DNA of 42,473 nt from Lachnospiraceae bacterium (GTDB lineage: Bacteria > Bacillota > Clostridia > Lachnospirales > Lachnospiraceae). Below are positions 1-24,019 of the stretch, in pieces. Each line of letters begins with the position of its first letter. Position 1 is the first letter of the stretch. The notes beneath the pieces are model-generated. The model searched no databases and had not been told where the DNA came from. It saw nothing but the letters and a program-made list of their open reading frames with translations. A program made the translations under genes and the position numbers. The stretch lies in assembly GCA_017556805.1 (NCBI GenBank), contig JAFYMC010000025.1, forward strand, positions 1-42,473, written 5' to 3'.

Positions 1-347
1 TGCAGCACCTGTGAAAAATTCACCCCTTTTGCTATGGCCCTTTCATTGAGCCATGCCGGAATCGTCAAAGTCTTCTTTACCGCTTTCGTCTCCTTATACT
101 GGTCAATATTACACGACACCAACGAAGCAAATCCGTCCTCTGCGGAAAGTGTCTCTATATCGGACGGTACCGCAATCGGTCGCTCCTGTTCCAGCAGCGT
201 TAAAATATAACCCGCCAAAGCTTCCTGGGCACACGCCATAGTCTCCGCCACAGAAGAACCATAACTGTGACAGCCCGGTAAATCCGGAAACTCCACCCAA
301 TAAGAATCCTCTTCTTTATGAAACACCGCCGGATAAACAAACAACAT
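1..347 (-). CDS. hicB: HicB-family antitoxin, C-terminus cut by window edge
   Basis: Read on the minus strand from the ATG at 347, this gives about 115 codons and runs off the left edge. The N-terminus (MLFVYPAVFHKEEDSYWVEF, then PDLPGC) is the partial RNase-H-like fold typical of HicB, and the end (KKTLTIPAWLNERAIAKG) is the start of a ribbon-helix-helix/HTH DNA-binding tail. HicB neutralises the HicA mRNA-cleaving toxin and represses its own promoter. A good ribosome-binding site (AAGGAGG) sits 8 bases before the ATG. The same reading frame is open upstream into a hicA remnant, so a fused protein starting at 446 is also possible. Confidence 0.85.
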   Translation of the reverse strand, partial: MLFVYPAVFHKEEDSYWVEFPDLPGCHSYGSSVAETMACAQEALAGYILTLLEQERPIAVPSDIETLSAEDGFASLVSCNIDQYKETKAVKKTLTIPAWLNERAIAKGVNFSQVL

Positions 348-2536: not shown

Positions 2537-3031
2537 TTATGCTGCCTCGCCGTTCTTCTCTGCAATCTGCTTGAGCACTCTTGCCATGTTGGAGATCGGG
2601 GACTTCATGCTGCCGAGAAGCTTGGAAATAAGTACTTCTCTGGACGGGATGGTAGCAACCTTCTGAAGACCTGCTACATCGTAGTAAACGCCTTCTACAA
2701 CACCGCCCTTGAACTCGAGCTTCGGAGCCTTCTTTGCGAACTCAGCAAGAATTCTTGCCGGAGCCACTGCATCTTCGATACCGAAAGCAACTGCGGTCGG
2801 TCCTTCTAAGTGCTTAGCAAGCTCTGCATACTGGGTGCCTTCGAATGCGAAGTTGAGGTATGTGTTCTTGTATACCTTGTATACAACACCGGCCTCTCTT
2901 AATGCCTTACGAAGTGCGGTGTCTTCCTCTACGGTAAGACCACGGTAATCAACTAATACCGCTGCACCGGCCTTCTCTACGTAGCCCTTAATCTCGTCTA
3001 CGATCGGCTTCTTGATTTCAACCTTTGCCAT
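2537..3031 (-). CDS. rplJ: 50S ribosomal protein L10
   Basis: 164 residues. The N-terminal rRNA-binding domain (KKPIVDEIKGYVEKAGAAVL, then VDYRGLTV) and the C-terminal helix that carries L7/L12 dimers are present. L10 anchors the stalk to 23S rRNA and, when in excess with L12, binds its own leader RNA. The gene is preceded by an L10 leader with an attenuator (3139-3262) and followed after 127 bases by rplL. Confidence 0.98.
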   Translation of the reverse strand: MAKVEIKKPIVDEIKGYVEKAGAAVLVDYRGLTVEEDTALRKALREAGVVYKVYKNTYLNFAFEGTQYAELAKHLEGPTAVAFGIEDAVAPARILAEFAKKAPKLEFKGGVVEGVYYDVAGLQKVATIPSREVLISKLLGSMKSPISNMARVLKQIAEKNGEAA

Positions 3032-3138
3032 TTTTTTACCTCCTTATAGAATACGGCTTACGCCGGAATCCAAAGACGAAAAAACAAGCAATTTATATAA
3101 ACTCAATCCTCGCGGAATGCTTTCGTTCACCAAGGAAC

Positions 3139-3170
3139 AAAAAAGACTCTCTGCGAAGACGCAAAGAGTC
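3139..3170 (-). terminator. attenuator of the L10 leader
   Basis: GACTCT-type stem, 3145-3170, followed by six T on the minus strand (3139-3144). It is the expression platform of the leader, about 110 bases before the rplJ start. Confidence 0.85.
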
Positions 3171-3262
3171 AAACAAATCATAAACGCTTGATTCCTCGGC
3201 AGGCGGTTTCTCTTACGCCGGTATGTCCGGCACCTGCTGTCTTCGGTCTGACTGGGGGGGTT
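3139..3262 (-). ncRNA. ribosomal protein L10 leader
   Basis: On the minus strand upstream of rplJ the RNA carries the L10-leader hallmarks: CCGAAGACAGCAGGTGC, then TAAGAGAAACCGCCTGC and CCGAGG pairing with it as in the 23S rRNA L10 site. An intrinsic terminator follows. Excess L10(L12)4 is known to bind this leader and favour termination in Firmicutes. Confidence 0.9.
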
Positions 3263-3280
3263 AGCCACAGTCCATTTGAT

Positions 3281-3309
3281 ACTATACCATGGATTTAATT
3301 ACTTGTCAA
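3281..3309 (-). promoter_or_regulatory. promoter of the L10 leader-rplJ-rplL transcript
   Basis: Minus-strand TTGACA (3304-3309), 17-bp spacer, TATAGT (3281-3286). A TACCATG sequence (3285-3291), similar to the array sites at 3431-3824, overlaps the -10 end of the spacer; this may be chance. Confidence 0.85.
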
Positions 3310-3430
3310 CAACAAATTTGTTTTTCTTGCATATCTTTTTTCTTGTATTTTTTCTTTGAGACCTTTGTCTGTAAAACCTCTATCTTTGTGCTTATCGGTT
3401 CATGTTATCATCCGTCCAAGAATCACATAA

Positions 3431-3824
3431 TACCATGAGCAGCACAAATCCTCTATTTTTCATAGTATCCGCCCAACACCTATTTTTCATTTTACCATGA
3501 TACATAATCCCTTTCTTGATTTTCATGGTACAAATTTCTCTTTCATTTTCTTCTTTACCATGATAGAATTCTCTTCCGGCATCTCTCATGGTACAAATCC
3601 GCTCATTTTCTCTCTAAACCGATATATTTACAGTTCATCTTCTCTGATTTCCGCCATTTTATACCATGAGAAATTTCCTCTTGCACTTCCTTCATGGTAA
3701 TCAAAGTTTCTTCAACTAATTTTGTACCATGAGAATATCTTCAAATCTTCTCTCTCATGGTAAATCTTAATTTCGAATTAAAACCCGTACCATGACACAC
3801 ACTCTTATTTCTTTTATCATGGTA
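3431..3824. repeat. phased array of alternating TACCATGA / TCATGGTA sites
   Basis: TACCATGA occurs at 3431, 3493, 3556, 3662, 3725 and 3788. Its reverse complement TCATGGTA occurs at 3523, 3586, 3692, 3755 and 3817, with one variant (TCATAGTA) at 3460. Start-to-start distance within a pair is 29-30, and between pairs 33, giving a 62-63-bp period; one gap of 76 breaks the array in the middle. A further one-mismatch site (TCATGTTA) lies at 3400. DNA between sites is not conserved but is rich in pyrimidine on the plus strand. The region 3310-4011 has no gene. No cas gene or long repeat is present, so this is not CRISPR. Confidence 0.9.
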
Positions 3825-3906
3825 TTTTTGCATGGGGGTGGTATGTTTTTTCAAGCCGCTTAGACACCCGAATTCCCCTGGAATGAAAAATTTTGCCTGC
3901 ACGCAA

Positions 3907-4011: not shown

Positions 4012-4704
4012 TTAGCCTAACTTTGCGGTGTTCACCTTAACACCCGGGCCCATAGTGGACGCAAGTGTTACACTCTTTAAATACTGACCCTTCGCAGATG
4101 CCGGCTTTGCCTTAATGATTGCACCCATAATCGTCTGGAAGTTGTCTGCGAGCTGTTCCTCGGTGAAGGATACCTTACCTACCGGAACGTGAATAATGTT
4201 GGTCTTGTCAAGACGGTACTCAATCTTACCAGCCTTGATATCGTTAACAGCCTTGGTTACATCCATGGTAACAGTACCAGCCTTCGGGTTCGGCATTAAG
4301 CCCTTCGGTCCGAGAACACGACCGAGACGACCAACAACACCCATCATATCCGGGGTAGCTACTACTACGTCGAACTCAAACCAACCGTCATTCTGAATTC
4401 TCGGAATGAGGTCCTCTGCACCAACGTAATCAGCGCCTGCTGCCTCTGCCTCGTTTGCCTTATCGCCCTTTGCGAAAACTAATACTCTAACAGTCTTACC
4501 GGTACCGTGCGGCAGAACTACTGCACCACGTACCTGCTGATCTGCGTGACGACCGTCTACACCGAGTCTGATGTGAGCCTCAACGGTCTCATCGAACTTT
4601 GCGGTAGCGGACTTCTTTACTAAAGCAATTGCTTCATTGGAATCGTACTGTGCTGCCTTATCAAAAGCCTTCACAGCATCGGTATACTTCTTTCCTCTTT
4701 TCAT
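4012..4704 (-). CDS. rplA: 50S ribosomal protein L1
   Basis: 230 residues, the usual length. The domain I/II signature ([20 protein letters not shown]) and the RNA-binding N-terminal part are intact. L1 binds the mobile stalk of 23S rRNA near the E site and is a translational repressor of its own operon in several bacteria. The ATG is preceded by an AGGAGG site. It follows rplK after 175 bases, a spacer that holds an L1-stalk-like sequence. Confidence 0.98.
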
Positions 4705-22495: not shown

Positions 22496-24019
22496 TTACT
22501 CGGCCGGCTTAATGGATGCCAAGTCTAATACATATACCGGGTAAAATAAGAAGTTCGTATACTTCTTGTTTACCGCCACCAGCTTTGCACCGTCCTGCAA
22601 GTATACGCTGGCGGCGTCCTCGGTTAAGATTTTCTGAATGTCCTTATATAAGGTAATCTTCTCGTTCTCATCGGTGCTTGCTAATGCCTTTGCGAAGGTT
22701 TCGTCGAACACCGGGTTTTCATAGTTCACAAAGTTGTTGCTTGCGGTGGAGGTATAACGCTTCACCACATCACTCGGTGCCAAAGCAGCATCCAGTCCTA
22801 CGATGGTTGCTTCATAATCTCTTGCGCGATATACATCCGTCAGCCATGCGGACCATTCGATTAACTGAATTTCCGCCTGCACACCGACTTTCTTATACTG
22901 TTCCGTGAGTACCTGAGCCGTTGCCACATGCATATCGTAGTTGGACGGCACCTTTACCACAAACTTTAACGGATTGCTTTCATCATAGCCTGCTTCTTTT
23001 AACAGTTCCTTCGCCTTCTCCGGCTGATAGGTGTAATAGTTCTCCAACGACGCATCATAATATACACCGAAGTTCGGGAACATATTACTGCCGATGACAT
23101 GGCCTCTGCCACCGGATACAATGTTTAACAATTCTTCCTTATCCACCGCATAACAAAGTGCCTGACGCACCTTAAGGTCGGCAAACGGTCCGAAATCGTT
23201 ATTTAAGAACATTGCCTGCACTACATTTGTAGAACCAATCGCCAGATTATAATCTGCGGTCAGCTGTGCCGCCTGCTCATCCGTCAGGTACGGGAAAATA
23301 TCGATGCTTCCCGATAACAGTTCCATAAAGGCCGCATCGTTGCTGGCACAAATCTTAAAGGTTACATTTTCCAAGTACGGCTGTTCTCCGTAATAATCGC
23401 CAAACCGCTCTACCACAAAACTGGTTAACGGTGTGTAGGAGACAAACTTATACGGGCCCGTTCCTACCGGCGCACTTTCCTGATTCTCATAATCCTCCGG
23501 GATAATGAAGCAGGTTAAAAATCCCAAAAGCTCCGTATTCGGCTCGGAAAGAGAAATCACAACGGTATCCTCTCCTACCTTTTCCACGGCAGAAATAACA
23601 GAAAGCGCCGATTCCACAACGACCTCAGGATCTTTATCGTCGAGTAAACCGGCGCAACGCTTAACCGAATAAATCACATCATCCGCAGTAACTACCTCGC
23701 CGTTGTGAAACTTCACATTTTCGCGCAAGGTAAAGGTATATGACATGCCGTCCGGGGCAATCGTATACGCTTTTGCTACCGCAGGAACCAATGCTCCGTC
23801 TGCGGAAGGCTTTACTAATCCTTCGAAGACGTTAAACAAGACTTCATCGGTTCCTGCCGCCACTGCTTTGTGAGGGTCAAGACTGTCCAAATCCTGTGTT
23901 ATTCCTACTACCGCGGAAACTGCATCCTCCGAACCTTTCTTTCCCGTCTTGCCGCCGTTGCATGCGCAAAGTGCGGTAACGAAAACAAGTAGTGCAAGAA
24001 ATATTGCTTTCTTTTTCAT
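22496..24019 (-). CDS. family 5 extracellular solute-binding lipoprotein
   Basis: 507 residues. Lipoprotein signal with the lipobox LCAC (lipidated Cys near 20), so it is anchored on the outer face of the membrane. SBP_bac_5 features include DSLDPHKAVAAGTDEVLFNV, KFHNGEVVTADDVIYSVKR and GTGPYKFVSY. It captures peptide or a similar ligand for the permeases and ATPase encoded just downstream. It is the first gene of the operon, with a promoter at 24074-24102. Confidence 0.94.
   Translation of the reverse strand: MKKKAIFLALLVFVTALCACNGGKTGKKGSEDAVSAVVGITQDLDSLDPHKAVAAGTDEVLFNVFEGLVKPSADGALVPAVAKAYTIAPDGMSYTFTLRENVKFHNGEVVTADDVIYSVKRCAGLLDDKDPEVVVESALSVISAVEKVGEDTVVISLSEPNTELLGFLTCFIIPEDYENQESAPVGTGPYKFVSYTPLTSFVVERFGDYYGEQPYLENVTFKICASNDAAFMELLSGSIDIFPYLTDEQAAQLTADYNLAIGSTNVVQAMFLNNDFGPFADLKVRQALCYAVDKEELLNIVSGGRGHVIGSNMFPNFGVYYDASLENYYTYQPEKAKELLKEAGYDESNPLKFVVKVPSNYDMHVATAQVLTEQYKKVGVQAEIQLIEWSAWLTDVYRARDYEATIVGLDAALAPSDVVKRYTSTASNNFVNYENPVFDETFAKALASTDENEKITLYKDIQKILTEDAASVYLQDGAKLVAVNKKYTNFLFYPVYVLDLASIKPAE

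Follow-up and report, generated by a model that had tools for sequence, protein, structure and literature searches.

Helically phased arrays of alternating sites at many chromosomal loci in one genus of Lachnospiraceae

What is the function of a dozen copies of one short word set out in alternating orientation, at nearly constant distances, between two ribosomal protein genes? In the 42,473-nucleotide stretch of Lachnospiraceae DNA analysed here (the window), the rplA-rplJ spacer holds twelve strictly alternating sites, eleven of them exact (TACCATGA or, in the other orientation, TCATGGTA) and one a single-change variant, TCATAGTA (Table 1). Their start distances form a mirror-symmetric series (29, 33, 30, 33, 30, 76, 30, 33, 30, 33, 29), in which 29 or 30 separates the members of a pair, 33 separates one pair from the next, and a single gap of 76 divides the array. 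A recount reproduced the sites, orientations and distances given by an earlier, sequence-only reading of this DNA, as well as its estimate of their rarity: the exact 8-mer is expected 0.93 times over the full window (sd 1.08; maximum 4 in 100 shuffles), and the only other exact matches lie at 24016 and 34271. Tandem Repeats Finder detected no tandem repeat within the array, its one weak row (3316-3353) lying outside. A one-mismatch site that the same reading had placed at 3400 was excluded, being 29 bp from its neighbour in terms of the hexamer described below, as against the usual 31-32.

Table 1. Coordinates of the array, its sites and the neighbouring features in the window
Feature	Position	Strand	Remark
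Whole array	3431..3824		12 alternating sites, two blocks of six, mirror-symmetric spacing
Site 1, TACCATGA	3431..3438	+	exact
Site 2, variant TCATAGTA	3460..3467	-	in register
Site 3, TACCATGA	3493..3500	+	exact
Site 4, TCATGGTA	3523..3530	-	exact
Site 5, TACCATGA	3556..3563	+	exact
Site 6, TCATGGTA	3586..3593	-	exact
Central 68-bp gap	3594..3661		between site 6 and site 7
Site 7, TACCATGA	3662..3669	+	exact
Site 8, TCATGGTA	3692..3699	-	exact
Site 9, TACCATGA	3725..3732	+	exact
Site 10, TCATGGTA	3755..3762	-	exact
Site 11, TACCATGA	3788..3795	+	exact
Site 12, TCATGGTA	3817..3824	-	exact
rplJ (L10), gene downstream of array	2537..3031	-	named by eye; L10 leader upstream supports
L10 leader RNA (RF00557), array-rplJ interval	3131..3264	-	60.8 bits, cut-off 44
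rplA (L1), gene upstream of array	4012..4704	-	named by eye

The sequence-only reading had also linked a TACCATG at 3285 with the array. This occurrence, TACCATGG, overlaps the promoter of rplJ, which by eye reads TTGACA-N17-TATAGT on the minus strand. Since ATGGTATAGT of that promoter is retained at rplA-rplJ in two relatives that lack the array (G002 and G005), the word belongs to the promoter and is no array site. The rplA-rplJ spacer of G005 also carries an insert flanked by GAATTCGGGTGTC and its inverted copy, one end of which is present in G002 and in the window (about 3860-3880 of the window; L046 and L048, near rplA); the pattern suggests a small mobile element inserted at one and the same position.

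The core shared by all arrays of this design is the hexamer TACCAT, the direction of which flips every 31-32 bp, or 3.0 helical turns. The claim that every site faces the same side of the helix stands as regards this alternation of about 3.0 turns, with the correction that even spacing holds for the hexamer and not for the 8-mer. Distances between hexamers fall into classes of 31/32, 43, 62-64 and 73-75 bp, which at 10.5 bp per turn make 3, 4, 6 and 7 turns; the mean phase cosine at 10.5 bp, 0.948, is not counted as evidence, the chains having been picked within distance windows. Two site types were found, TACCATGA (A) and TACCATTG (B), and mixed arrays exist. The 362 lattice sites comprise 238 of type A (KTRCCATGANAA) and 124 of type B or other (about TTACCATTGRAA), with a pseudo-palindromic consensus of 11-12 bp in which a constant half, TACCA, is joined to a variable second half, reading on the other strand TTNTCA in type A and about TTCCA in type B. 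In G003 C37 and G004 C50, B-like sites occupy one strand and A sites the other throughout.

Distances between neighbouring sites of the A-type loci lie on the lattice in 200 of 215 cases, at 29-30 (plus to minus) or 31-34 (minus to plus). Ten of the remainder measure 45, 65 or 75-77. The last five (11, 12, 18, 18 and 32) are irregular and arise from extra one-mismatch sites within spacers or, once, in G003 C4, from neighbours 32 bp apart that point the same way. The pseudo-dyads of type A, unlike the hexamers, are unevenly spaced, at about 27.5 and 35.5 bp. Arrays range from 4 to 18 sites, many of them without the plan of six plus six. Twenty A-type arrays were compared, and a gap of 67-69 bp is present in nine of them, with A/T tracts similarly placed by eye; the nine are partly non-independent (three at rplA, two at pheT). 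The spacing of 29 is enriched at array ends, occurring in 27 of 36 terminal pairs versus 17 of 74 inner pairs (Fisher p=2.7e-7) and, with one array per locus, in 17 of 24 versus 10 of 47 (p=7.8e-5); the effect is uneven, with 17 of 18 first pairs and 10 of 18 last pairs, and some ends are contig ends.

The DNA between sites is patterned in composition. Within type A pairs, the spacer centre has an AT fraction of 0.76-0.94 and GC-richer shoulders, while between pairs the centre falls to 0.40-0.44 and the shoulders are AT-rich, a pattern that none of 1000 within-spacer shuffles matched in any of the four spacer classes. Type B within-pair spacers have the same central AT peak (0.89-0.97), and between-pair spacers are similar but less clean, with a centre of 0.71 flanked by 0.33 in one class; p is below 0.01 in three type B classes and 0.13 in the smallest, of nine spacers. 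The shuffles treat the spacers as more independent than they are, since some come from duplicated units or from orthologous arrays. DNA bent round a protein would account for such phased A/T stretches.

Searches of ten draft genomes of the genus, in which several arrays lie at contig ends and orthologous arrays are non-independent, revealed at least 35 array loci in six genomes (at least 2 in G000, the window's own genome, 2 in G001, 14 in G003, 10 in G004, 5 in G007 and 2 in G008). The total consists of 34 loci with flanking ORFs compared plus G007 C39, which matches G008 C33 by array sequence. The second array of G000 has 14 sites and lies downstream of ilvE (C19:85566-85980), and a lone site pair is found at C14:66251. 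The A-type pair pattern occurs in four of the ten genomes (8 pairs in G000, 2 in G001, 41 in G003 and 40 in G004) and its reversed control in none; for the core, such a control is uninformative, TACCAT being its own mirror image. Off the arrays, type A sites are near chance, with 16 in 421 kb versus 10.2 expected, four of the 16 forming two lone pairs.

The three-site core pattern had no match in the remaining four genomes (G002, G005, G006 and G009; drafts 72-90% complete), so that the absence of sites from relatives, which the sequence-only reading had named as an argument against a binding role, was observed in four genomes of the genus and their presence in six. Because four genomes lack a match, and rplA is about 98% identical in two of them, the function of the arrays is dispensable. 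A tree of ilvE plus rplA splits G006-G009 from the others with support of 100, its inner branches being unresolved; array loss and repeated gain would both be compatible with it.

Outside the genus, no array was found in the collections scanned, apart from three-site matches of a chance-like kind. The three-site pattern in its A-type form yielded 19 stretches in 84,980 species genomes, all in the Lachnospiraceae metagenome assemblies RGIG4203, RGIG5355 and SIG307 (G003, G004 and G001), a scan that may omit the window's own records, and had zero matches in viral contigs. A family scan of 397 genomes for the A-type pattern at up to 3 mismatches, blind to B-type arrays, recovered G000 only, its control giving a single hit in G230 and another in G359; a core-pattern scan of 299 family genomes recovered G000, G008 and one three-site match in another genus. 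A phage origin was considered and rejected, the 12 viral stretches matching the core pattern having exactly three lattice sites each and looking like chance. No description of such an element was found in the open-licence papers and abstracts consulted.

Several arrays occupy the same position in different species: rplA-rplJ in four, ilvE in six, pheT in two, and, in two each, a sigma-factor/PadR locus, G003 C11/G004 C9 and G007 C39/G008 C33 (by array sequence). Across 11 orthologous pairs of A-type arrays, identity is 93-100% in site columns, counted wherever one or both arrays have a site, and 55-65% in spacer columns; the words are thus preserved and the intervening DNA drifts. For comparison, spacer identity between non-orthologous arrays averages 47% (sd 5, highest 58%) over the 145 pairs, out of 179, that offered more than 100 spacer columns, and gene identity is 98-99% for rplA and 92-94% for ilvE. 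The ilvE arrays fall into two groups by site type, those of G001, G007 and G008 using the other second half (TACCATTG) and those of G000, G003 and G004 not, and spacers align poorly between the groups. Relatives that have an array keep its sites and phase, and at least 35 loci share the design, which upholds the view of a phased array of protein sites under selection.

The genes beside the arrays, called mechanically and named by eye except where a search is given, vary without a common theme, and by this ORF calling at least seven of the arrays have convergent genes on their two sides. Among 34 arrays, no gene family was convincingly recurrent beside unrelated loci, some ABC-transporter and sigma-factor families being shared. 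The particular link to the rplJ promoter and the tie to origin-proximal ribosomal genes, both suggested from the window, are not supported, nor is control of rplJ as the general role of the arrays.

Taken together with the drifting spacers, the layout is probably best read as a scaffold on which a dimeric, sequence-specific protein would assemble in an ordered and cooperative way, bending or wrapping the DNA. Each pseudo-palindromic site would offer this protein a constant half, TACCA, and a type-specific second half. Because direction alternates every 3.0 turns, the constant halves would all be presented on one face of the helix, and the phased A/T and G/C stretches between sites would fit DNA that bends or wraps round the protein complex. 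Some of the arrays follow a mirror plan, with a seven-turn gap between two sets of three pairs, which suggests a finite complex with two-fold symmetry. We infer binding, dimer state and wrapping from these features of the DNA, and such a scaffold would most likely serve local DNA architecture, or allow a single lineage-specific protein to tether many loci of the chromosome.

A stronger form of the scaffold proposal, which we put forward tentatively as a possibility, is a lineage-specific chromosome organiser: one or two related binders, recognizing one half-site in common and either of two interchangeable second halves, would form wrapped complexes of two-fold symmetry and defined size on some ten or more coded scaffolds per chromosome. 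If so, homotypic or heterotypic assemblies would read type A, type B and mixed arrays as addresses, and could bring distant loci together. The arrays present a strong cis signature (half-site, helical lattice, mirror symmetry and conservation against drifting spacers) with no known trans partner. Such a partner could provide a natural DNA-wrapping scaffold with its stoichiometry written in the DNA, and could make it possible to test how bacteria use ordered arrays beyond plasmid centromeres; the presence and absence of arrays among close species enables a genetic comparison.

The geometry appears closest to that of Lrp-type operators and of plasmid centromeres such as parC, by likeness rather than demonstrated membership in either class. 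That the arrays are operators at which an Lrp/AsnC-type or other ring-forming regulator wraps DNA and controls the neighbouring genes is a somewhat doubtful alternative, which the phased A/T pattern of the spacers favours. In the Sulfolobales, Sa-BarR and St-BarR are described as recognizing a 15-bp semipalindromic motif with spacers of 15-17 bp, and wrapping round an octamer was proposed (PMC10201364); summing motif and spacer gives a period of 30-32 bp, where the source speaks of two helical turns. The pseudo-palindromic array sites, with their period of 31-32 bp, come near to this. The period near 31 bp is, however, a property of the hexamers, the pseudo-dyads alternating between about 27.5 and 35.5 bp. 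Lrp/AsnC arrays have a semipalindrome of about 15 bp; the pseudo-palindromic consensus of the arrays covers 11-12 bp. BarR has 4-5 sites beside the regulator's own gene (PMC10201364), whereas here up to 18 alternating sites recur at many loci, no regulator gene was recognized as a common neighbour, and the lack of a shared theme among adjacent genes, together with the convergent settings, argues against gene control. The regions bound by RemA in Bacillus subtilis offer a similar likeness: their repetitive, poorly conserved DNA has been proposed to wrap round an oligomer of ring-like form (PMC8481266), as array DNA might do here. They consist, according to the same account, of 7-bp AT-rich protected regions at 3-bp intervals in direct repeat, in contrast to a strict word every 31.5 bp.

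Several arrays scattered over one genome would also be compatible with chromosomal centromere-like sites for a partition or anchoring protein, akin to parC or sopC, an explanation we consider unlikely. The sopC locus of the F plasmid is made up of twelve 43-bp repeats, each repeated as a whole unit, while the chromosomal parS site of ParB is a 16-bp palindrome, TGTTTCACGTGAAACA, from which the array consensus differs. In the arrays, by contrast with sopC, spacers are unrelated and whole sites alternate; the likeness lies in longer units that contain short inverted repeats and that may be gathered at one locus or dispersed, as outlined for such centromeres in PMC5016525. The split, ordered layout resembles R1 parC, the repeats of which can be split by a promoter and the ParR superhelices of which wrap DNA; with it and the pSK41 centromere, the arrays share an ordered row of sites, possibly in two blocks, and conceivably DNA wrapped by an oligomer (PMC5016525). 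The iterons of parC, however, measure about 10 bp and belong to a plasmid par cassette, whereas the arrays follow a 31.5-bp lattice in many chromosomal copies; no par genes were recognized near them, and by eye no partition gene recurs among the flanking ORFs of the 34 arrays. Type II centromeres of the parC kind adjoin genes for an actin-like motor and an adaptor; the ORFs nearest the 34 arrays, set against one another with names given by eye and 14 different proteins run against Pfam, yielded no partition family in common. An essential centromere is disfavoured because four of the ten genomes, as drafts, show no three-site match.

Regular spacing, alternating orientation and extragenic position are likewise features of BIMEs, rows of REP sequences that are mostly extragenic (PMC2817692), and at pheT the array, with some 70 bp more, is present in G003 and G004 and absent between the same flanks in G005. 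That the arrays are selfish repeats of REP/BIME type spread by a transposase is nevertheless improbable. REPs are imperfect palindromes with a GT(A/G)G head and a cognate RAYT (Y1) transposase in the genome; the conserved stretch of the arrays, about 11-12 bp, has no such head and forms no hairpin of its own. The Y1 transposase (PF01797) was found in two of the ten genomes, G000, the window's own, and G009, and in none of the array-rich G003, G004, G007 and G008, incomplete drafts that hold 31 of the 35 arrays. No 9-mer is common to four or more array flanks, and non-orthologous arrays lack clear spacer similarity.

Neighbouring sites are complementary, and in 9 of the 13 loci read as lying between co-directional genes the sense strand of the spacers is rich in purines, so that a transcribed array might fold into a row of hairpins acting as RNA; this reading is likewise improbable. 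In 114 site pairs, 17 one-sided A-to-G changes and 2 matching double changes were counted, the latter close to the number expected under independence (near 1) and hence no excess of compensation, and 7 of the 17 would create A-C mismatches. In mixed arrays pairing ends after six bases, the window array has no Rfam match, and hairpins would not need a fixed 31.5-bp lattice.

Recent 63-bp unit duplications are visible in some arrays, and because of them the regular spacing and the spacer statistics are partly inherited; yet neutral tandem duplication with decay, named by the sequence-only reading among the findings that would speak against a binding role, is scarcely credible as the sole cause, sites being far more conserved than spacers in 11 of 11 orthologous pairs and no tandem repeat being left in the window array. 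A CRISPR locus, with longer direct repeats and cas genes, was rejected on the alternating 6-12-bp word and on the nearest ORFs, among which no cas gene was seen by eye. The type B array at G003:C48:49583-49996 (L069:5584-5997) contains several nearly identical 63-bp units and is apparently a product of recent growth by unit duplication, illustrating how arrays may grow.

A 268-aa protein adjoins the ilvE array in G000, G001, G003, G004 and G007 (the G008 contig ends within the array), its gene lying at L032:6558-7361 (G004), L072:5058-5861, L150:4049-4849 and L143:5605-6402, with its frame broken in the window's genome. It gave no Pfam match above cut-off and no PDB match, and its invariant YPDF and EHFG stretches look by eye like those of a PD-(D/E)XK nuclease. 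As a candidate binder it was set aside: strong copies occur in five of the six array genomes, none was found in G008, and distant copies exist in the array-less G005 and G009, a weak link. A HEPN AbiU2-like gene (PF18734) adjoins ribosomal protein genes at L073:11739-12362 (G004, after rplL by eye), and in L067 (G003 C17), from past 12218 to the contig end, another repeat, unlike the array, abuts the phased sites.
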